64,000 nucleotides of DNA from a bacterium (lineage in GTDB: Bacteria > Eisenbacteria > RBG-16-71-46 > CAIMUX01): NCBI GenBank assembly GCA_030431975.1, contig JAUIHP010000006.1, positions 62,001 through 126,000 of the forward strand, written 5' to 3'. Position 1 is the stretch's first letter. Each line of letters begins with the position of its first letter. The position numbers and the translations under genes are program-made. Shown here in pieces: positions 759 to 62,036 of the stretch. A model generated the notes under the pieces. That model saw only the letters and a program-made list of their open reading frames with translations. It made no database searches and was not told the DNA's origin.

Positions 759-3329
759 TCACCCGCCGTAGAGGATGAACGCCGACCAGTAGCAAGGATG
801 GGAGTAGGGATGCCTGCCATCGCGTTCATACTCTACGAGCCGTCGGCGCGCCGACTGCAGAGCTGGAAGTAGATCCGGCGACTCATTTGGACGCAGAAAC
901 TCTCCGTAGAACGTCTCCATGAAGATCCGGGTCGCTTCATCGTCGACGTCCCAGCAGCTGACCAACAGATGGGTGGCCCCGGCGCGAAGAAAGGCCTGCG
1001 CGAACCCGACGACGCCTTCCCCGTGCACATGACGCCCCCGTCCGGTTTCGCAGGCGCTGAGAGTAACCACCAACGCATTGAGTTTCCAATTGCGGCTGAC
1101 CTCCCCCGCCGTGATCTCACCACTAAAGAACCGAGTCTCGTCCAATGCAGCATCGACGGGGTCGGGGAGATCCTGTTGGGAGAGAAGGAGAGCTGATCTT
1201 TCCGGCCGCTCGGGATCGGCGATGGCGTGCGTCGCGAAGTGGAGAACATCGAACTGTTCGAGTTCACCACCCGTCCGCATGTCTTCGATTCGAGCTTCGG
1301 CAGCGTCTTCACCCAATAGGACCCGGACATCGTCGAACAACGGCGTGATCATCTCGACTTCCCGGCGCGTTGCCGGCAGTTGGGGGACGGCTTCCCCAAA
1401 CGGAGGATCACCGAGAAGTAGCGCGCGGGACGGTTTCTTCGTGCGATTTCGTTCCGAAGCCAGCTTGGCGTACGTCGCCGCGGAAGGCATGTACGAGACC
1501 AGGCGTTTCAATCCGACAACAGATCCGCCACGGTCCGACAGGCACTCGACAGGGAATCCGGCCAGAACTCCACTGCTGACCACAACCCAGTGATCGGCAT
1601 CCTCCAGCCACGGTTCTAGAGGCTCGAACCACGTTCTCCAAACCTCTTCCGTTTGGGTGCGATGCGCATCGGGACGCGGCGCCCGCAAGCTCGATCGACC
1701 GGCCCGCGCCAATTCGTCCGCAAGCACCTCGACCGATTGTCTCGCTCTTTCCGGCTGAAAGTTGGGCAGTCGAACCCAACGAACGTCGTCAGAGTCGATG
1801 ACGTAGCCCCAGGCGGGGAAGGACTCGCCTCTTCTCGGTTCGATCCAGCCAACGACGACCGTCCTTGCATCGAGAGCGTCACGAATGCCGTCCATCGTGA
1901 CGACCGCATCGGGCTCAGCCTCATCGACTCGAAAGATTATTTCACGCAGGGCCCGCCCCTGGGCCTTGTCCACCTGAGCCCAGACATCTTCACGACCCAA
2001 CTCCAAGAGACTGATCGCAAGCGCGGAGTACGGCTCGGCCATGAAGGTCGTCCGCTCCGTTCCGTGACGGACCTTCCGGCGCGCAGCTTCGAAGCCCGAT
2101 GCGGCGTGCGACAGTCGCTTCTCCGCCAGTTCGAATTCACCGCACTCCATCCACATCAAACCGGCCAGAGTGCGGGATTCCACCGCCAAGGGATGATTGG
2201 CGCTCCACGCCTCGATGCGGGACGCAGCCGCTTCGAACAACCGGTCGGCCGTCTCTGTTTGTTTCTGCGCGGCATAGAGTCGCGCCATGGCTGCGTCGCA
2301 GTACGCGAGTTCGGCATGACCGGCTCCGAGCTTGGCCTCCCGAATTCGTCGCGATTCTGTCAACGACAACTCGGCATCCACAAGTCGACCGGCGAAGCGC
2401 TGCGCGTGACCCATCTGAAGAAGGAACGTCGCGACGTCTGGATGGTCCGGACCGAGCACCTTCCGGCACCGTTCCACGATCTGCTGATAGATGTCGATAG
2501 CCTCTTCGTACTGGAGCCCTTGGACCAGATGCGCGGCCAGGTTGCTCTTTGCGTGGAGCAGGACGAACGGATCTTCCTCTTCAAGCGGTTGGGCCAGGTT
2601 CACGGCTTTCCTTAGAAGCTCCGGAGCCTCCGGGTGACCGATGTCGAAAAGAACGCGACCCAGAAAACACGTGGTCCAGACGACCGGGGTTGCGTTCGGA
2701 CCCAGCTGCTGCGCCCGGATAGCGAGGGCACCGCGATAGAGTTGTTCGGCGTACCGATACGCGCCCAGGTCATGTTGGAGGCGGCCGAGGTTGTGCAACC
2801 CGGTGGCCGTACTCAGATGGTCTCCAAGCTGATCTCGCCAGATCCGAACAGCGCGTTGCAGGAACCCTCGTGCGGCTCCCAGTTCTCCCTTGAGCCAATG
2901 CAGACGTGCGGTGTCATTGAGGCTCTCCGCCGTGAGCACATGATCGGAACCCAATTGTTGCTCGCGAATCGAAAGGGCCCGGGACAGAGGCTCGGCGGCT
3001 GCCGTCAACTCACCCTGGTCCTGCAGAGCGAGGGAGAGTCCCTCCAATGCGGCCGCGACATCGAGGTGGTCGGGACCTTGCATCGACTCGCGAAGTTGGA
3101 TCTCTTCATTTCGCAGCGCAACCGCGGTGTCGAAACGACCGCTATCGTAAGCTTCCTGCGCCGCCTGAGCTGCGGCATCGGCTGCATCTGCGTTCGCGTC
3201 CACGTCTGCGTTCGTGTTCGCGACCACGCCGGCGTCCGCCGGGATTCGTGGGGTCTTGTCGTCGCTGTTGCCTTGCATCCGGACCATTATCGGGCCGGTC
3301 GTCGTCATGGGCAAACGGAAGGAACTCAC
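759..3329 (-). CDS. TPR-repeat CHAT-domain (caspase-like) protein
   Basis: An 856-residue protein with no signal peptide. Residues about 50-430 are tandem tetratricopeptide repeats of the kinesin-light-chain type (repeated A-x-x-L-x-R-A/L pattern). Residues about 540-856 form a CHAT domain, a clan CD cysteine protease related to caspases and separase. The catalytic pair is present: His701 in the FATHA motif and Cys760 in SACETG, followed by the typical GFAQAFLRAGA and SCWDVDD segments. It is the last gene of an operon behind an ECF sigma factor and a zinc-finger/TPR protein. The start is uncertain: GTG at 3329 has no good ribosome site, and ATG codons at 3308 and 3287 are alternatives. An intact dyad suggests an active peptidase; the target is unknown. 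Confidence 0.9.
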   Translation of the reverse strand: MSSFRLPMTTTGPIMVRMQGNSDDKTPRIPADAGVVANTNADVDANADAADAAAQAAQEAYDSGRFDTAVALRNEEIQLRESMQGPDHLDVAAALEGLSLALQDQGELTAAAEPLSRALSIREQQLGSDHVLTAESLNDTARLHWLKGELGAARGFLQRAVRIWRDQLGDHLSTATGLHNLGRLQHDLGAYRYAEQLYRGALAIRAQQLGPNATPVVWTTCFLGRVLFDIGHPEAPELLRKAVNLAQPLEEEDPFVLLHAKSNLAAHLVQGLQYEEAIDIYQQIVERCRKVLGPDHPDVATFLLQMGHAQRFAGRLVDAELSLTESRRIREAKLGAGHAELAYCDAAMARLYAAQKQTETADRLFEAAASRIEAWSANHPLAVESRTLAGLMWMECGEFELAEKRLSHAASGFEAARRKVRHGTERTTFMAEPYSALAISLLELGREDVWAQVDKAQGRALREIIFRVDEAEPDAVVTMDGIRDALDARTVVVGWIEPRRGESFPAWGYVIDSDDVRWVRLPNFQPERARQSVEVLADELARAGRSSLRAPRPDAHRTQTEEVWRTWFEPLEPWLEDADHWVVVSSGVLAGFPVECLSDRGGSVVGLKRLVSYMPSAATYAKLASERNRTKKPSRALLLGDPPFGEAVPQLPATRREVEMITPLFDDVRVLLGEDAAEARIEDMRTGGELEQFDVLHFATHAIADPERPERSALLLSQQDLPDPVDAALDETRFFSGEITAGEVSRNWKLNALVVTLSACETGRGRHVHGEGVVGFAQAFLRAGATHLLVSCWDVDDEATRIFMETFYGEFLRPNESPDLLPALQSARRRLVEYERDGRHPYSHPCYWSAFILYGG

Positions 3330-3373
3330 TCGACTGGGGTGTCACCGCGAGTCCGCTTGGGTCAACGCAGTTC

Positions 3374-4243
3374 CTACGCCGGCGGAAGTGTCTCGAGCCG
3401 TTTCAGCATCTCCCGGGCTCGCGAAGCGTTCTCACCGTCGTAGACGGTCACGGAATGAAGGACGGTCCGCGCTTCGTCGATGTCCCCGAGCCCGGCCGTG
3501 GCTTGCGCCAACTGCCAAAGGCTCTCTTCTTCGAGCTCTTCAGAGTCGGTCGACTCGAAGACCTGCCGGAAGATTTCGGATGCCTCCCGCGGCAGGCCAC
3601 TGAGGCAAACTGCCGAGCCGAAGTACAAAGCCGTTTCCGCGTCTTCGGGTCGGGCCTTGACGACGTCACCGAGACGCTCGGCGGCCGTTTCATACTCACC
3701 ATTCGTGTAGGCGGCAAGGCCCAGCATCCGCTGTTCGTCCACTTCGTTCCGCGGTACGCCTCGATGAACGGCGACCGGAAGCGGAGTCGGAACGAGTAAG
3801 GATGCCACTTGTCGCGCCAGCTCTCCAATACGCGCCCTCCAACGCTGCACGTCATCGGCCAGCTCCGGAAGGTCTATTGCCCGTTCCGCTTCCTGCGGAG
3901 CCTCGACCTTCGGTTCGAACCCGAGAAAGCGAAGCTCGCGGCAACACTGATCGCAATGATCCAGGTGGCGCGCCAGGGCTTCGCGCTCGATCACACCCAC
4001 CGATGCCCCGACCTCCTTCCAATTCACGAGCATACGGGGAGGGATGTGCGGAACTTGTTCATCCGAAGAATGAGCCTCCCGCTCCCGAATGAGTTCGTTC
4101 CACTCGTCTCGGCAGAAGGCACAGTCACTCCGGTGTTTCTCGTGCTCCGACAAGACCTCCTCGCCGATGAGCCCGGCAAGCCGAAGCAGCGAATTGCGTC
4201 GAAACGCAGCGTGAGGATCATTGGCCCTGGGTTCATTCGCCAT
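3374..4243 (-). CDS. zinc-finger anti-sigma-like protein with TPR region
   Basis: A 289-residue protein with two H-x3-C-x2-C zinc-binding motifs, HRSDCAFC (about residues 37-44) and HLDHCDQC (about 92-99). This is the fingerprint of ZAS-type (zf-HC2) anti-sigma factors, here duplicated. The C-terminal half (about 180-285) carries TPR-like helices (AAYTNGEYETAAERL, TALYFGSAVCLSG). No convincing transmembrane helix separates the parts, so it is probably a soluble anti-sigma factor. Its ATG overlaps the end of the sigma factor gene by 11 bp, a hallmark of sigma/anti-sigma pairs. The TPR part could bind the TPR-CHAT protein encoded downstream (inference). Confidence 0.8.
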   Translation of the reverse strand: MANEPRANDPHAAFRRNSLLRLAGLIGEEVLSEHEKHRSDCAFCRDEWNELIREREAHSSDEQVPHIPPRMLVNWKEVGASVGVIEREALARHLDHCDQCCRELRFLGFEPKVEAPQEAERAIDLPELADDVQRWRARIGELARQVASLLVPTPLPVAVHRGVPRNEVDEQRMLGLAAYTNGEYETAAERLGDVVKARPEDAETALYFGSAVCLSGLPREASEIFRQVFESTDSEELEEESLWQLAQATAGLGDIDEARTVLHSVTVYDGENASRAREMLKRLETLPPA

Positions 4244-4793
4244 GGATCGCGTCTCCGATCTCCCGCCAACGAGGATCCGTCGTGAGCGCCTGCTTCAGAC
4301 TTCCCAAACATCGGGACCATCGCTTACGAACGGTCGCGGCCTCGATACCGAGTTCGGTCGCCACGTCCTTCCACTCGCGTGACTTCAGGAAGGACCGGAG
4401 CAGCCCCCCGCACCCACCGTCTGCTTTCTCGACGAAGAACTCATTGGCAATCAAGGCCAACCGCTCGGTGAGGTCACCCCAGCTCGAGTCCGTCCATCCA
4501 CCCTGGATACTGGTCGCCGTCGCAGCCACTTTCTGTTCCTGTGTGAAAGCATCGTAGTAGCGGCGGGCGCGGGACTGAACCCGCAGGTGATCCATCCACG
4601 TTCGCTTGCAAACCGTCATGACCAGGGCGTCGACGTTCTGCGCAGAGTCGCGCTCGAAGGCGCACATCAGCCTCAACGAGACTTGCTGCGTCAGGTCTTC
4701 CACCAGGTCCTCCTCCTGTCGACAAAGTCGAACGAGGCGTTGTCGCGCCAGGCGACGAACGTGTTCCCAATCGATGCTTTCGGTGCTGGTCAA
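4233..4793 (-). CDS. ECF-type RNA polymerase sigma factor
   Basis: About 186 residues with region 2 (DLTQQVSLRLM through the DALVMTVCKRTWMDHLR helix) and region 4 ending in the helix-turn-helix EWKDVATELGIEAATVRKRWSRCLGSLKQAL. Region 1 and 3 are absent, so it is an extracytoplasmic-function sigma factor. I chose TTG at 4793 because GGAGAG lies 5 nt upstream; a GTG at 4823 in the same frame has no ribosome site. It is the first gene of the operon followed by the zinc-finger protein and the CHAT protein, so it probably directs transcription of its own operon under control of the downstream anti-sigma factor. Confidence 0.85.
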   Translation of the reverse strand: MTSTESIDWEHVRRLARQRLVRLCRQEEDLVEDLTQQVSLRLMCAFERDSAQNVDALVMTVCKRTWMDHLRVQSRARRYYDAFTQEQKVAATATSIQGGWTDSSWGDLTERLALIANEFFVEKADGGCGGLLRSFLKSREWKDVATELGIEAATVRKRWSRCLGSLKQALTTDPRWREIGDAIHGE

Positions 4794-4889
4794 ACGCGCT
4801 CTCCGGATTCCAAAGGGATGCACCGAATCGTAGCACTCTGACCACTGTCGTCCATGTCATCGACGGTGGGGGCTACGTGTGACCGAGGA

Positions 4890-4915
4890 AACGGGTCTTC
4901 CGCCTCCAGGTTTCC
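4890..4915 (-). promoter_or_regulatory. possible ECF-type autoregulatory promoter
   Basis: On the minus strand GGAAAC (4910-4915), 16 bases, then CGTT (4890-4893). This resembles the GGAAC-N16-CGTC/T pattern recognised by many ECF sigma factors and lies about 100 bp upstream of the sigma factor start. The same stretch reads GGAAAC...GTTTCC on the plus strand, so it is also an inverted repeat facing the divergent secreted-protein gene. Only motif resemblance supports it. Confidence 0.3.
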
Positions 4916-5101
4916 TCCGAAGACCAGTGGCGATCTTTTCGCCCCCCCCAACCACTTGTCAATTAGGCACTTAGCGGGCATGTGGCGATTTTCTCCGCCT
5001 TGTCGGTCACACCGCGACTCCTCTGTCGACGGACTCCACGAACGCAGCCGACAACACCACGGCCGGATTTGAACACCGACAAGACAGGAGATGATGTGAC
5101 C

Positions 5102-7954
5102 ATGAAGACGTTCCCCGTTCTCACCGCGGCCCTCGACACTCGACGGCCGTCTCAAAGGAAGCCACGCACAGGAAGAGTGCTCAACGCTCACGGCCAGACC
5201 TGGAAGCTCTGGCTCCTGTCCACCTGGACGATGCTGCTGGCGTTGGGCTTCGCTCACGAAGTCGCCGTCGCCCAGGGCGCAAGAGAGGTCGTTATCGACA
5301 CCGCCTACAAGTTCCGCAACGCGGACTGGGCGATCGACGAAAACGGCGCGTACTTCGCCGTGGCCCAAGTCGAGGACGGCTCGACCGGGCGGGAGGTTCG
5401 TGTCTACCGCTCCGACGATCACGGCGAGACCTGGCGCCAATGGGGCCGCTTCTGGGACACCGACAGCGAGTCCGAGTACCTGTACCCTTCCGTCACCTGT
5501 GCGCAGGGGCCGAGCGGCCGATTGCTCGTCGCGATGGTCGAGGATCCCAACGACGGTGTGACGCGGTCGAGACTTTGCGTCTATGCCGCGTCCACCGATG
5601 CTTCATTCCCGACCTGGTCACGGACGGTCGTCGGTGAGTCTTCCTCCGAAGACTATCGGAACCCCGACATCGAAACGGACGCCGCCTTCTACGACGACTA
5701 CAACGTCTATCTCGTCTACGAACGTTCCACCGGTTGGGGTGCGGGCGATATCCACTTCGCCCGATCGACGGACTTCGGATCCTTCTTCTCCCACAACTAT
5801 CCGATCATCGTCGAGTCGGAAGCCGGCTCCCTAACGAGTCCGGTTCTGAGCTACGGCTTCGGGGACCAACTGCACGTCATTGCCCGTCGGGTCGACATCA
5901 CCGACGGAACCGGAATCTCCATGCGGCGCGGCTTTGGCCGCGTCCCTACTGCATTCAACTGGTTCGGAACGGTGGAAGTCGAGGCCTCGGGCACGGGCGT
6001 CAGCCACAACCGACCGTGGATCGCCGCTTCCAAGACCACCAACGACGTCTATGCGTCCTATTCCAGAAACGAAGGAGAGCTTCACGGAGTCTTCCTTTCC
6101 AGCACCGACGGCGGTGTGACCTTCAGCGATCGCGAAGACTCACCCACCGTTCCCGGCTATTACTTCAGCAGCGGCGTCAATGCTCTCGGCGAGCCCGCAG
6201 TCGCCGGATGCATTTTCAACTTCGCCCGCCCGCTCGTCCCCGACTTCTCCGGTCCTTGGGAAACAACGCAGATGTTCGACGATCAGGGCTATGCACCCGG
6301 CCACCCTCCCGTCGTCCTGGCTGACCCCGCTCGCGACGATCAGTTCGGAATGGTCGGGATCGTCTGGCATCCGGATGAGGCCCAATCAAAACTCCGTTTC
6401 TACGGCGAGTGGCGGACGGAACCAGAGTGGCCGGTTTACCAGAGCACGATTCCGTTGGTCGCGAACAATCCGGTCGTGGCTCCGGCGGCGTTGATCGACG
6501 TCAACGGCGACATGCAGATGGAGTTCGTCCACGTTACCCAGTCCGGCCACGTTTGGATGGTCGAGAACGACGGGACTCCGCTCGCCGGATGGCCGGTCGA
6601 CATCGGCAACCCCGTCGCAGGAAGCCCGGTCGCCGTCGCGGACATCGATGGGGACGGCGAAGTGGAAGTCGTCATCGGTAACGACGCGGGGCAGGTCCAC
6701 GCCTTCGCTCTGGACGGAACGACGATGCCCGGTTTCCCGGTGACGGTCGGCTCGGATCCTGTCCACGTTTCCATTGGTGACTTCGCGCTTCGCGGGGATC
6801 TGACGATCGTGGCCGGGTCCGGCAGTCTGCTCAGTCTCGTCGGCCCCGATGGAAACCTCGCCACCGGATTCCCTGTAGCCATGCTGGGTGACATCGAACA
6901 CACCTGCGCCACCGGCGACTACGACAACGACGGAACGACAGAGATCGCCTGCGGCCACGGCAATCGCCTGAGCCTTCTCGACAGCAGCGGAAGCGTCGAG
7001 TGGACCGTCGCCTTTGCGGCCGACCTCAGCGACTCACCGACCATGGGTGACTTCGACTTCGGTTACAATTTCATGGAGATCGCCGTGCCGCTGGAGAACG
7101 GCGAGATGCATCTGCTACAGAACGACGGAACAAGCATGCCTGGATTCCCGTGGAACGAACCGAGCGGCCTGCCGAACACCAGCGCAACGTTTTCTGACGT
7201 CCTCGGAACCGGAAGCCATGAACTTCTTTGGGGGAACAAGTCGGGCGCAATCTACTCGACCAACTACGCTCGTCCCGATGAGCACGTATCAGGATTCCCG
7301 GCCCTCACCGAGGGTCCGGTGGTCGCAGCTCCGATCACGACGCATTCTGCGGTCGGCCCGTCGCACCTCTACTTCGGAGACCAGGCCGGACTGGCCTTCG
7401 GTTGGACCAACATTCTCGGCGCAGTGGACGGATGGCCGATCCCGTTGGACGGTCAGGTCATCGGCACACCGTTGAGTGCGGATCTCGATGACGACGGCTC
7501 CATCGAGGTCGTCTTCTACACACCAAGCGGCATCCAGATCCTCGACCTGCACTCACCGATCAACAACAGCTTCATCTGGCCGCTGGACATGGCCAACAAT
7601 CAGCGGACGGGGAGCGCGCCCGCGATTCCCGTCCCGGCTGACTCCCCCGATTTTGGAACTCTGCCTACCGCCTCGTTGCAACTTCGGTCGGCGAATCCGG
7701 TTCACGATACGGCTTCGTTGCGGCTTACCCTGGCCGAAGCTTCGAACGTCGACCTGGCGATCTTCGACAGCACAGGACGCCGCGTGGCGGATCTGGGTCG
7801 GGGGATTCGACCGGCGGGAGCGCATGACCTGACCTGGAACGGAAAAGACTCCATCGGTCGAATTGCGCCGTCCGGAATGTACTTCGTTCGTGCCCGGATC
7901 GAGACGGGTCGTTCCACCGATCGCATCGTGCAGAGGCTCGCCGTACTTCGGTAG
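5102..7954 (+). CDS. secreted BNR/FG-GAP propeller protein with FlgD-like C-terminal domain
   Basis: A 950-residue exported protein. An extended N-region precedes a hydrophobic signal (WLLSTWTMLLALGFAHEVAVA) near residues 38-57. The N-terminal half has sialidase/BNR-type repeats (YRSDDHGETWRQWG). The middle carries FG-GAP/VCBS calcium-loop repeats such as DIDGDGEVEVVIGND. The last about 85 residues are a FlgD-like Ig fold (LAIFDSTGRRVADL, then GMYFVRARIE...RLAVLR). The ATG at 5102 follows AGGAG; an in-frame ATG at 4982 would place 40 unlikely residues before it. Enzyme activity is not evident; an adhesive or surface-display role is likely. Confidence 0.8.
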   Translation: MKTFPVLTAALDTRRPSQRKPRTGRVLNAHGQTWKLWLLSTWTMLLALGFAHEVAVAQGAREVVIDTAYKFRNADWAIDENGAYFAVAQVEDGSTGREVRVYRSDDHGETWRQWGRFWDTDSESEYLYPSVTCAQGPSGRLLVAMVEDPNDGVTRSRLCVYAASTDASFPTWSRTVVGESSSEDYRNPDIETDAAFYDDYNVYLVYERSTGWGAGDIHFARSTDFGSFFSHNYPIIVESEAGSLTSPVLSYGFGDQLHVIARRVDITDGTGISMRRGFGRVPTAFNWFGTVEVEASGTGVSHNRPWIAASKTTNDVYASYSRNEGELHGVFLSSTDGGVTFSDREDSPTVPGYYFSSGVNALGEPAVAGCIFNFARPLVPDFSGPWETTQMFDDQGYAPGHPPVVLADPARDDQFGMVGIVWHPDEAQSKLRFYGEWRTEPEWPVYQSTIPLVANNPVVAPAALIDVNGDMQMEFVHVTQSGHVWMVENDGTPLAGWPVDIGNPVAGSPVAVADIDGDGEVEVVIGNDAGQVHAFALDGTTMPGFPVTVGSDPVHVSIGDFALRGDLTIVAGSGSLLSLVGPDGNLATGFPVAMLGDIEHTCATGDYDNDGTTEIACGHGNRLSLLDSSGSVEWTVAFAADLSDSPTMGDFDFGYNFMEIAVPLENGEMHLLQNDGTSMPGFPWNEPSGLPNTSATFSDVLGTGSHELLWGNKSGAIYSTNYARPDEHVSGFPALTEGPVVAAPITTHSAVGPSHLYFGDQAGLAFGWTNILGAVDGWPIPLDGQVIGTPLSADLDDDGSIEVVFYTPSGIQILDLHSPINNSFIWPLDMANNQRTGSAPAIPVPADSPDFGTLPTASLQLRSANPVHDTASLRLTLAEASNVDLAIFDSTGRRVADLGRGIRPAGAHDLTWNGKDSIGRIAPSGMYFVRARIETGRSTDRIVQRLAVLR

Positions 7955-8050: not shown

Positions 8051-8237
8051 TCCCGGTTCTTTGACGTGAGCCGACCTTCTCACGACCATCGATCAACCTC
8101 GCCTCCGGCAACGGGGGCGAGGTTGGGTGCACCACTGGCAAGCAGCTTGAAATTCCGCAGGATCGGGTCCATGCAGTACCCTTCGGTTGCGAACGGATTG
8201 GCCGTTCGGCCCGAGACTCTGTTGGACACCGAATCGA

Positions 8238-9176
8238 ATGAGCATGTCGTCGACTCAATCCCTGGCCGTCCTCTTTGCCGATATCGCCGGCAGTACGCGC
8301 CTCTACGAGGAGTTGGGGGACGGACCGGCCAAGCACCTCATTGGCCGGGGGCTTGCGGCCATGTCTGAACGAGCCGCCGCGGCGGGCGGCCGGTTGGTCA
8401 AGACGATCGGCGACGAGATCCTCTGCACCTTCCCCGACGCCACAGCGGCAGCGAGAGCCGGGCTCGGAATGCACGAAGCCCTGTTCCGCGTCCATCCGGC
8501 GAAACCTCTGGTCGCGTATGTGGGCCTCCATTGGGGCGAAGTCATCCAAGAGAACGGCGACATCTTCGGTGATGCCGTCAACGTCGCGTCCCGCGTCGTC
8601 AACCTGCGCCGTCCTCGTGAGACGCTGACCACTGCATCGACACTCAATCAGCTCGAATCGGATCTCCGAACCCGTGCCCGGCGGATCGACCGCGTTCAAT
8701 TGAAGGGCAAGGAAGAAGCGTTCGAGATCTACGAGCTCGTGCTCGAGACAACGGATCTGACGATCATCGGCGCTTTCCGACTTCCGGAAGCGAACCCAGT
8801 CCTTTCACCGAACACTACACATCTGGACTTGAACGTCGGTGGAGAACCGCATCGACTCGATGCCCGGCGGTCTCCCGTCACCCTTGGCCGCCTCGACCAC
8901 TGCGACATCGTCGTCCCGTCGACCTGCACCTCGAGGACGCATGCCCGGATCGAATACCGCGGAAGCCGATTCGTCCTCATCGATCAAAGCTCCAACGGTA
9001 CCTTCATCCAACCGGACGGCGACGAGGGTTGCCACATCGTCCGAGACGAAATCGACCTTACCGGTTCCGGCAAGATCGGGTTCGGCGCACCAGTCGGAGA
9101 GAGCGGACTCACTCCCGTTTCCTACGTCGTCACTGAAGGTCGGAACAAAGAATTCCAAGGAGGAGGCGTCGAGTGA
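8238..9176 (+). CDS. class III adenylate cyclase with C-terminal FHA domain
   Basis: A 312-residue soluble protein. Residues 6-165 are a class III nucleotidyl cyclase: metal-binding Asp15 (FADIAGST) and Asp59 (IGDE), adenine-type selectors Lys55 and Asp112, and transition-state Asn115 and Arg119 (GDAVNVASR), so it looks active on ATP. Residues 195-290 are a forkhead-associated domain with the phosphothreonine-reading residues: Arg218 (LGR), SRTH (Ser232, His235) and SSNGTF. It should make cAMP under control of Ser/Thr phosphorylation signalling (inference). I chose ATG 8238; ATG 8244 is equally possible and an upstream in-frame start at 8187 adds non-conserved residues. The stop overlaps the phosphodiesterase start (GTGA). 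Confidence 0.9.
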   Translation: MSMSSTQSLAVLFADIAGSTRLYEELGDGPAKHLIGRGLAAMSERAAAAGGRLVKTIGDEILCTFPDATAAARAGLGMHEALFRVHPAKPLVAYVGLHWGEVIQENGDIFGDAVNVASRVVNLRRPRETLTTASTLNQLESDLRTRARRIDRVQLKGKEEAFEIYELVLETTDLTIIGAFRLPEANPVLSPNTTHLDLNVGGEPHRLDARRSPVTLGRLDHCDIVVPSTCTSRTHARIEYRGSRFVLIDQSSNGTFIQPDGDEGCHIVRDEIDLTGSGKIGFGAPVGESGLTPVSYVVTEGRNKEFQGGGVE

Positions 9177-14973: not shown

Positions 14974-16527
14974 ATGTTCGTCCCCATCGACCGCAACGCA
15001 CCGCTCGCCGAACAGATCTATCAGCACATTCGCTCCGCGATCCTCGGCGGCACACTCACACCCGGGAAGAGGCTTCCACCGACGCGAGAACTCGCACGGG
15101 ACCTGTCGGTGTCACGAAACACCGTCCTGTCCGCCTATGAACGGCTCGGCGCCGAAGGTTACGTCGAGGGTGGAGGTTCATCCGGCACCTGGGTCTGCCA
15201 CGACCTTCCGGATCCGACACCAGTTCGCAAGCGCGCCCGCCCGTCAGGTCGGAGTCGGTCATCCGGTCGGTCGTCAGGTCCGTCATCCGGTCGGTCGTCA
15301 GGACGGACATCAGGCCCGTCATCACCTCGGTCGCGGTCCCGATCCCGAATACCGCGGCATCAACTGACACCCTACGCCCAGGCTGCCATGCGCCACCGGG
15401 ACCTCTTCTCGCCTCTTTCGAGCACTGATCGATCGCACTTGGAAGTCGACTTTCGGTTCAACGTCGCACTCGCAGACCTGCCGGCCCGAAGAGTCTGGAG
15501 TCAGCTGCAGCGGGAAGTCGCATCACGGCTAGCCGCTGCCCCGCCGCCGGTTCGCATGCTCAACCGGGAGGAGTCTCTACGAGCCACGGTAGCTCGCGAC
15601 CTCGCCGTGACCCGCGGCATTCGGGCGGAACCCGAGCAGGTGTTCCCAGTCGACACCGGCCTCCATGCCATTGGTCTGGTCGCTCGCGCACTCGTGCCTT
15701 CAGGCGCACGGGTCGCACTCGAGGACCCGCACTTCATGGGAGCCCGTCAGGTGTTCCGCTCGCTCGGCGCGAAGGTGACGACTGTTCCCGTCGACACAGA
15801 CGGTCTTCGTGTGGATCGCCTGCCCCGGGACGGAGATTCGGTCCGACTCGCCTACCTCTCACCATCGCTGCAATGGCCCACAGGAGGCGTACTCCCCCTC
15901 GCCCGCCGACTCCGTCTCCTCGAGTGGGCGCGCACGCAGGACGCATTCGTTCTCGAGAACGATCACAACACACACCTTCCCGATCGCGGGCGTCCGCTCG
16001 AATCACTGCAATCGATCGACGCAGACGGCCGCGTCCTCTACCTCGCGATGCCCTCCCATCTCTTCTCACCTCCCGTGTCACTGGCCTACCTCGTCGTCCC
16101 ACCGGGGCTCGTGGACACCTTCGAAGCACTCATCGCCCTCGAAGGTCGACGTCACCAACTGTTGGTCACAGAGGTCATGGAGGCCTTCCTTTCCGGCGGA
16201 CACATGGCTCGACTGCTGCGACGGATCAACACCCGCGTTCGGCCCGTGCGCCGGTATCTACGTGAGCGTCTTTCCCGAATCGAAGGGCTGTCGGTAGGTC
16301 CAGGCAACGGGGGGCTTCATGTGCATGCACAAGTGAGGGGATGGTCCCCACGGCAGATCGACGAGGTCGTGCGACGTGCCGAAGCGCGGGGCGTCGGTCT
16401 GTATCCCGACGCACCGTACTACTTTCGCCGGCCTGCAAACGGCGGGCTGATCTTTGGTTTCGGCGAGTTGGATGCTAAGCAGATCGATCGCGGGCTGAAG
16501 GTCCTCGCGGACGAACTGTCGAACTAG
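14974..16527 (+). CDS. MocR/GabR-type regulator with degenerate aminotransferase domain
   Basis: A 517-residue GntR-family winged helix (residues 1-75; TPGKRLPPTRELARDLSVSRNTVLSAYERL) fused to a fold-type I aminotransferase domain (about 125-517). Between them is a Ser/Gly/Arg-rich linker of about 40 residues. MocR proteins bind PLP on a lysine in a GTFSK motif; here the aligned stretch is LAMPSHLFSPPVSLAYLV, with His362 in place of Lys. The usual EDDYD motif is ENDHN, losing the Tyr near the PLP ring. The protein probably cannot form the internal aldimine. ATG 14974 follows GGAGG; a GTG at 14941 is an alternative. Confidence 0.85.
   Translation: MFVPIDRNAPLAEQIYQHIRSAILGGTLTPGKRLPPTRELARDLSVSRNTVLSAYERLGAEGYVEGGGSSGTWVCHDLPDPTPVRKRARPSGRSRSSGRSSGPSSGRSSGRTSGPSSPRSRSRSRIPRHQLTPYAQAAMRHRDLFSPLSSTDRSHLEVDFRFNVALADLPARRVWSQLQREVASRLAAAPPPVRMLNREESLRATVARDLAVTRGIRAEPEQVFPVDTGLHAIGLVARALVPSGARVALEDPHFMGARQVFRSLGAKVTTVPVDTDGLRVDRLPRDGDSVRLAYLSPSLQWPTGGVLPLARRLRLLEWARTQDAFVLENDHNTHLPDRGRPLESLQSIDADGRVLYLAMPSHLFSPPVSLAYLVVPPGLVDTFEALIALEGRRHQLLVTEVMEAFLSGGHMARLLRRINTRVRPVRRYLRERLSRIEGLSVGPGNGGLHVHAQVRGWSPRQIDEVVRRAEARGVGLYPDAPYYFRRPANGGLIFGFGELDAKQIDRGLKVLADELSN
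15259..15330 (+). repeat. 12-bp imperfect tandem repeat encoding the MocR interdomain linker
   Basis: Six diverged copies of a 12-bp unit (TCATCCGGTCGG, TCGTCAGGTCCG, and so on) encoding SSGR/SSGP tetrapeptides between the DNA-binding and aminotransferase domains. Copy number could vary without breaking the frame. Confidence 0.8.
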
Positions 16528-61394: not shown

Positions 61395-62036
61395 TTACGT
61401 GTTCCGTCGTTCGTAGTGAATCTGCCAACGCGTCAGCCAAGTCTCTCCACCGTCCGTCGAGACTTCCCAATCCCAGTCGAAGGATGAGTCTTTGATGTTG
61501 AAGAAGACCATTCGCTGCTTCACGTTCTTGCCGCCAACGACCGCGTCGCGACCCAAGATCATGCGGTCACCTTCCATGCCGCCGGTGAAATCCAGATAGC
61601 CGCCGGAGTCGTCGACCCAGGTTTGCTTCCAGACACCGGCGTTCGCGTCATAGACGGATAGCGACCGACCGTGGAAGGGCAGTTCGGGCGCGGCGAAGTT
61701 CTCTTCGACGACGCACCCGCCGAGTTCCGACGTGATCGTGTTCCGTCCCTTTCCGGCGCTGATTCCGGCCCCGTCCGGCCAGGTCAGATCCCACTCCCCG
61801 ATCCAAAAGTCGAACTGACTCGACTCCGGAGAGGAACAGGGAGCGGGCGGCGCATTCGTATCCGCGCCCGCTGCGTCCTGCGAGCCTTCGGCGAACGCCG
61901 ACGGTCCACTGCATAGAAAGACGAGCGAGGAAAGCCCGGCGAAGAGGGCGCTCCGCCCAAAGGCCAAGTGGGAAAGCCGACCTTGGGAGTCGCCCCAACT
62001 CGACCCCAAGCTCGACGACATTGTTGCTGAGTACAT
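61395..62036 (-). CDS. secreted DUF1579-like protein
   Basis: A 213-residue exported protein. The hydrophobic signal is SALFAGLSSLVFLCSGPSAFAEG (about 29-51). The mature part is beta-rich with the family-like opening SQFDFWIGEWDLTW and later WVDDSGGYLDFTGGMEGDRMIL and WEVSTDGGETWLTRWQIHYER. Proteins of this type appear as small lipocalin-like barrels; no activity is established. I chose ATG 62036 (AGGAAGG upstream) over the first in-frame start. Confidence 0.65.
   Translation of the reverse strand: MYSATMSSSLGSSWGDSQGRLSHLAFGRSALFAGLSSLVFLCSGPSAFAEGSQDAAGADTNAPPAPCSSPESSQFDFWIGEWDLTWPDGAGISAGKGRNTITSELGGCVVEENFAAPELPFHGRSLSVYDANAGVWKQTWVDDSGGYLDFTGGMEGDRMILGRDAVVGGKNVKQRMVFFNIKDSSFDWDWEVSTDGGETWLTRWQIHYERRNT

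Follow-up and report, generated by a model that had tools for sequence, protein, structure and literature searches.

The 64,000-nucleotide window analysed here (positions 62,001 to 126,000 of contig JAUIHP010000006.1, from a bacterium of the Eisenbacteria lineage) carries near its beginning three adjoining genes on the minus strand. They follow one another in the order extracytoplasmic function (ECF) sigma factor gene (4823-4233), anti-sigma-like gene (4243-3374) and a gene (3329-759) encoding a protein with tetratricopeptide repeats (TPR) and a CHAT protease domain. A preliminary description of this DNA had proposed an operon of a sigma factor, a zinc-finger protein and a CHAT protein, with overlap of the first two genes, and both proposals are borne out. 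All three reading frames are open and show coding-type codon bias, the G+C fractions at the three codon positions being 0.71/0.47/0.68 in the sigma gene, 0.73/0.44/0.68 in the anti-sigma-like gene and 0.63/0.48/0.72 in the TPR-CHAT gene. The anti-sigma-like gene starts within the sigma gene, the two sharing 11 nucleotides (ATGGCGAATGA), and 44 nucleotides lie between its stop codon and the start of the TPR-CHAT gene at 3329. The trio is neighboured by a histidine phosphatase on one side and an FG-GAP protein on the other, and the region downstream of the CHAT gene, inspected for a terminator, contains no special fold (z -1.07).

The three encoded proteins

The first gene (4233-4823, minus strand) encodes a protein of 196 amino acids when read from the GTG at 4823. 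An in-frame TTG at 4793, located behind GGAGAG, was the start chosen in the preliminary description, and either start is possible. As a single sequence, the protein narrowly misses the curated cut-offs (Sigma70_r2, 23.9 against 24; TIGR02937, 39 against 42.9). A profile built from ten of its relatives reaches solved ECF sigma structures over nearly the full length (E 4e-12), and by this profile comparison, together with its place in the ECF tree, the product is a predicted ECF sigma factor with sigma-70 regions 2 and 4.

The second gene (3374-4243, minus strand) encodes a predicted soluble protein of 289 amino acids, characterized by Pfam, alignment, hydropathy and a profile of its relatives. 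As previously described, it contains two zinc-binding anti-sigma (ZAS) motifs and TPRs, the latter forming a C-terminal region. The motifs, H37xxxC41xxC44 (4112-4135) and H93xxxC97xxC100 (3944-3967), are invariant in seven aligned sequences. The TPR region, at about residues 169-265 (3449-3739), scores above the cut-offs of Pfam TPR_19 and TPR_14 and can be aligned with the TPR tail of the paralogue at locus L011 (loci are designated here by L numbers); TPRs are also present in the anti-sigma factors of L065 and L018. A profile of seven anti-sigma relatives retrieved the ZAS anti-sigma factor RslA (E 3e-4), with RsiW, ChrR and DdvA below significance, and a profile of the single-ZAS membrane relatives retrieved RslA at E 7e-9. 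Given its HxxxCxxC N-terminal domain and the position of its gene beside an ECF gene, the protein is a predicted ZAS (class I) anti-sigma factor.

The third gene (759-3329, minus strand) encodes a TPR-CHAT protein of 856 amino acids with no predicted signal peptide. Its N-terminal portion, from about residue 45 to 465 (1935-3197), is a TPR array of the kinesin-light-chain type according to Pfam, which recognizes five TPR_12 stretches besides CHAT, as well as to the structural model and the fold search. This array shows about 27-33% identity to KLC1 structures. The CHAT domain occupies residues 561-855 (765-1649) and scores 190.6 bits with PF12770, against a cut-off of 24. The catalytic residues previously reported as intact, His701 (codon CAC, 1227-1229) and Cys760 (codon TGC, 1050-1052), are indeed encoded in the DNA, and they are kept in every complete CHAT domain of the phylum that was aligned, as well as in another 31 relatives drawn from other collections. 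With a CHAT domain and a complete His/Cys dyad, the protein is a predicted CHAT protease. Its AlphaFold2 model (predicted local distance difference test, pLDDT, 86.4; predicted TM-score, pTM, 0.82) finds as best fold matches in the PDB Csx29 (8eey_B, E 4e-16), separase and DdvA (8rw5/8rot, E 1e-13), and by sequence, too, the CHAT-domain profile matches DdvA best among PDB entries (8rot, E 2e-14). The relationship to Csx29 that had been suggested before thus holds at the level of fold, Csx29 being the top fold match.

Recurrence of the ECF, anti-sigma and CHAT association

The host genome is a 6.19-Mb draft in 59 contigs, with ten CHAT genes and 72 ECF matches. An ECF gene is located at most 2.6 kb from each of the ten CHAT genes; if the ECF genes were randomly scattered this would have a probability of about 6e-11, a figure that serves only as a guide because the paralogues are related and not independent. 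With only the sigma factor as starting point, a search retrieved relatives from nine of 59 genomes, the host genome among them, and led to the order ECF, double-ZAS, CHAT in L090, L094, L095 and L096, which belong to four other genomes of the phylum. When the search started from CHAT, 14 of the 28 loci outside the host genome but within the phylum had an ECF gene within 2.6 kb, most of them with a ZAS gene between or beside the two. In a wide sample from other bacteria, an ECF neighbour occurs at 11 of 80 CHAT loci, which is not clearly above chance; five of these 11 are full ECF-ZAS-CHAT sets, from Acidobacteriota (L114, L124, L166), Aminicenantes (L154) and an uncultured bacterium (L134). 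Judging by the counts in the phylum against those in the wide sample, the association is strong within the phylum but sporadic outside it. Candidatus Eisenbacteria and Krumholzibacteriota contain the nearest named CHAT relatives.

The preliminary description had suggested a survey of the three-gene order and named random co-occurrence in relatives as an observation that would speak against its reading. The survey shows a conserved association, both by the ten host CHAT genes near ECF genes and by the four other genomes with the same order, and the association is far beyond chance in the host genome. The co-occurrence of ECF and CHAT genes is not chance.

The arrangement of the genes varies between loci. 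The CHAT gene is not always downstream: L011 and L070 have it in divergent orientation, and at L018, L019, L087 and L088 it is on the strand opposite to the anti-sigma gene. At L011, in the same genome as the window, it is divergent from its own ECF/double-ZAS pair. Also in this genome, secreted subtilases whose C-terminal domains are FlgD-like or of the type IX kind come after the ECF-CHAT loci L013, L015 and L017. A soluble product is encoded between the ECF and CHAT genes; it contains a ZAS motif at L016 and L017 but lacks one at L013, L014, L015 and L020. At L018 and L019, again in the host genome, the CHAT proteins have lipobox-type N-termini and accompany an ECF sigma factor and a transmembrane ZAS anti-sigma factor, which in L018 bears the TPR tail.

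In the phylogenetic trees, several ECF clades match CHAT clades one to one (L065/68/69/72-75; L087/88; L018/19; L013-17 with L020; L134/154; L090/94-96), as would be expected of pairs that were inherited together. The window ECF groups with the double-ZAS set L090-L099 (SH-aLRT 100), and the window CHAT and that of L011 are sisters within the L064/L065/L069 clade (supports 96/86 and 97/88). As its ECF and CHAT proteins belong to different clades, the window sigma/anti-sigma pair and its CHAT were probably re-paired at least once. The partnership would thus also re-form, which argues that it is useful, more than an inherited linkage.

A putative protease-gated sigma factor switch

Besides type III-E CRISPR, the closest characterized relative of the trio is DdvS-DdvA from Myxococcus xanthus, which is also the closest known fused system and was absent from the preliminary description. 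According to PDB titles (8rot, 8rw5, 8rlz) and to the accounts in PMC12288465, which cites Bernal-Bernal et al. 2018 and 2024, and PMC4374960, DdvS is an ECF sigma factor and DdvA a transmembrane anti-sigma factor fused to TPR-CHAT. As of 2015, the signal that inactivates DdvA was not known (PMC4374960). An island with a CBASS (cyclic oligonucleotide-based anti-phage signalling system) and type III-B CRISPR is under the control of DdvS (PMC12288465). As in the trio, an ECF sigma factor goes with an anti-sigma factor tied to TPR-CHAT; moreover, the TPR-CHAT fold of the window protein matches DdvA, and the ZAS profile of exported relatives weakly touches 8rlz (E 0.019). However, DdvA is one transmembrane polypeptide, whereas the window encodes two separate proteins that are predicted to be soluble, with no transmembrane helix, and a fusion of anti-sigma factor and TPR-CHAT was found at none of the sampled loci. 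Nor was a CBASS or CRISPR island like that of DdvS found in the tested part of the window.

In type III-E CRISPR systems, Csx29 cleaves Csx30, which is an inhibitor of an ECF sigma factor (PMC10028731). This set of Csx29, Csx30 and CASP-sigma (Craspase, CASP) resembles the trio in combining an ECF sigma factor with two soluble proteins, a sigma inhibitor and a TPR-CHAT protease. The window sigma factor differs from CASP-sigma, as it scores 20.8 bits on NF041236, whose cut-off is 100, and the putative inhibitor is a ZAS/TPR protein with whose profile no Csx30 chain was retrieved from the PDB. Neither Cas7-11 nor a CRISPR array was seen alongside the trio among 13 window proteins and in positions 1-30000, Cas7-11 not having been searched genome-wide. 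Since the trio is unfused and by prediction not membrane-bound, with a sigma factor far below the CASP-sigma cut-off, no Csx30 match and no CRISPR or Cas component seen, it is a member of neither DdvS-DdvA nor the type III-E module.

Two other systems share part of this organization. In the ECF54 group, ECF genes have CHAT, subtilase and carboxypeptidase neighbours, and regulation by proteolysis was proposed (PMC8999054). The window likewise has a CHAT gene adjoining an ECF gene, and the paralogous loci L013, L015 and L017 have both CHAT and subtilase; the trio itself differs in its double-ZAS anti-sigma factor, in the lack of a subtilase and in the position of its ECF, which falls in a different clade. 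In the CalpL/CalpT/CalpS system of type III CRISPR, a protease cuts the anti-sigma factor and frees an ECF sigma factor (PMC11417357). The same outcome would apply to the window trio, for which we infer the cutting, although CalpL is a Lon-SAVED protease with a cyclic nucleotide trigger and the window protease is a TPR-CHAT protein. Protease-gated ECF switches are thus a known kind, of which the trio would be a split, soluble variant; every CHAT gene found in its genome is tied to an ECF gene.

The gene order, the domains, the conserved catalytic residues, the recurrence and the fold relation are observed, together with a solubility read from hydropathy. We consider it slightly better than an even bet (a probability of about 0.55) that the operon is a protease-gated sigma factor switch, a split cytoplasmic version of DdvS-DdvA that works like Csx29/Csx30/CASP-sigma with no CRISPR trigger. 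The double-ZAS protein would keep the ECF sigma factor inactive, and the TPR array of the caspase-like TPR-CHAT protease would sense a partner or a signal. Once triggered, TPR-CHAT would cut the anti-sigma factor, or start a cleavage that other proteases complete, and the freed sigma factor would transcribe its regulon. The binding of sigma by anti-sigma, the cleavage, the trigger and the regulon are parts that we infer; three things point to proteolysis of the anti-sigma factor, namely the conservation of the catalytic residues, the fusion in DdvA and the reaction proven for Csx29.

The location of the two partner proteins is of interest in this respect. Transmembrane helices and signal peptides were judged by hydropathy and by eye, with no trained predictor. 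Relatives of the anti-sigma-like protein usually have one transmembrane helix following the ZAS domain, in which case a signal peptide or a lipobox is present on the CHAT protein. At the corresponding site of the window protein (3764-3850), identified by alignment, hydropathy does not exceed 1.05 and there is no helix; helix and CHAT export signal are both missing in the window and in L013-L017 and L020, so that the anti-sigma-like and CHAT proteins of the window are both predicted to be soluble. In 31 of 32 modules, a helix in the anti-sigma factor goes with an exported CHAT and its absence with a soluble one, which is what one would expect of two proteins that have to meet. We rejected this rule as strong statistics, as its Fisher p of 2e-6 stands against only two independent tree contrasts and one exception, L011, where the anti-sigma factor keeps the helix and the CHAT protein has neither a signal peptide nor room for one. 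The pattern is hence suggestive and no proof of contact.

Other observations, like these two, weigh against the proposed switch. At L091 an ECF and double-ZAS pair occurs with no CHAT gene, so some pairs manage without it, and 69 of the 80 CHAT loci in the wide sample have no ECF neighbour. The 46 remaining genomes of the phylum yielded no ortholog of the exact soluble trio, and neither a regulon nor a trigger was found. In addition, the single-sequence model of the anti-sigma-like protein has a pLDDT of 42, too poor for an interface or a cleavage site to be read from it. As to L091 itself (2198-3755), the pair belongs to the window-sigma clade and its double-ZAS anti-sigma factor is transmembrane; a secreted, probably outer-membrane, protein follows in the place of CHAT.

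Alternatively, TPR-CHAT could control the anti-sigma factor by binding and leave it uncut, the two TPR proteins forming a sensor complex or CHAT being a non-proteolytic regulator, with the dyad acting elsewhere or on CHAT itself. TPRs occur here in both proteins, as in the anti-sigma factors of L065 and L018 mentioned above, and DdvA has TPR-CHAT within the anti-sigma factor itself, all of which would suit such a complex. However, His and Cys are kept in every complete aligned relative, split modules included, and a purely structural role would not need the dyad. We regard control by binding as rather unlikely.

It is also conceivable that CHAT is the output of the system, the released sigma factor boosting its own operon and the protease being a stress or abortive-infection effector with other substrates. 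ECF operons are commonly autoregulated and CHAT-type proteases serve as effectors elsewhere, and the CHAT gene is the last of the operon. Against this role stand the CHAT domain being part of the anti-sigma factor in DdvA, the divergent or opposite orientation of the CHAT gene at the six loci named above (L011, L070, L018, L019, L087 and L088), and the absence of any visible conserved promoter for autoregulation in front of related ECF genes. Moreover, the known substrate of Csx29 is a sigma inhibitor (PMC10028731). An output role therefore seems to us unlikely. A redox-type switch, in which oxidation of the zinc sites of the anti-sigma factor frees the sigma factor and CHAT is an unrelated neighbour, would agree with the two ZAS motifs and with soluble ZAS anti-sigma factors often being redox sensors (PMC8999054), but it is very improbable given the adjacency of CHAT and ECF in ten of ten cases and the DdvA fusion.

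The proposed protease-gated switch would tie together the ECF54 neighbourhoods, the fusion of anti-sigma and CHAT in DdvA and the Csx29-Csx30-CASP-sigma set as cases of a single, recurring partnership of ECF sigma factors with caspase-like proteases. Going further, the soluble trio could be a free-standing, CRISPR-independent CASP switch, in which protease and anti-sigma factor are both cytoplasmic and the cut follows a signal sensed through the TPRs, with the membrane DdvA-type and the III-E modules as two derivatives of one sigma/anti-sigma/CHAT partnership whose protease arm was recruited by CRISPR; we put this forward tentatively, as a doubtful scenario. As a small soluble three-gene version, the trio would allow cleavage and signal to be tested with neither CRISPR parts nor membranes. 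The presence of ten ECF-linked CHAT genes of several lineages in one genome suggests a major regulatory mode in the phylum.

Promoter region and surroundings

Of the overall picture given in the preliminary description, the conserved association, the intact dyad and the fold relation to Csx29 are supported, while the promoter and the abortive-infection reading are not. The string GGAAAC-N16-CGTT at 4890-4915 (minus strand), put forward as the operon promoter, is unsupported. The pattern has two matches in the window against 0.5 expected, nine of 100 shuffles having as many, and 93 matches in the genome, and no similar string recurs at equivalent places upstream of related ECF genes. At 4887-4916, between the operon and the divergent gene, GGAAAC and GTTTCC face each other about 17 nucleotides apart, which could be an operator or chance. 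The divergent gene, of the secreted FG-GAP/FlgD type, starts near 5102.

The abortive-infection reading finds no support in the neighbourhood. PADLOC detected no convincing defence gene and no Cas model match of note among the 13 window proteins, and a defence island nearby was rejected on this basis; no CRISPR-type repeat or array was found in positions 1-30000. DdvS and CASP suggest by analogy that the trio may have an anti-phage role, but the neighbourhood lends this no support. A mobile origin was likewise rejected, as base composition is flat across the operon and the sigma factor has no match among plasmid sequences; what the CHAT protein matches on plasmids and phages are only distantly similar CHAT or TPR proteins. 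Further along the window, a gene at 8187-9176 encodes a class III adenylate/guanylate cyclase domain and an FHA domain; it has a weak PADLOC match to PycC (26.6 bits) and is most likely an ordinary cyclase. Finally, a short tandem repeat at 15254-15313 is made of a 12-base unit (GTCGGTCATCCG) and its variants.

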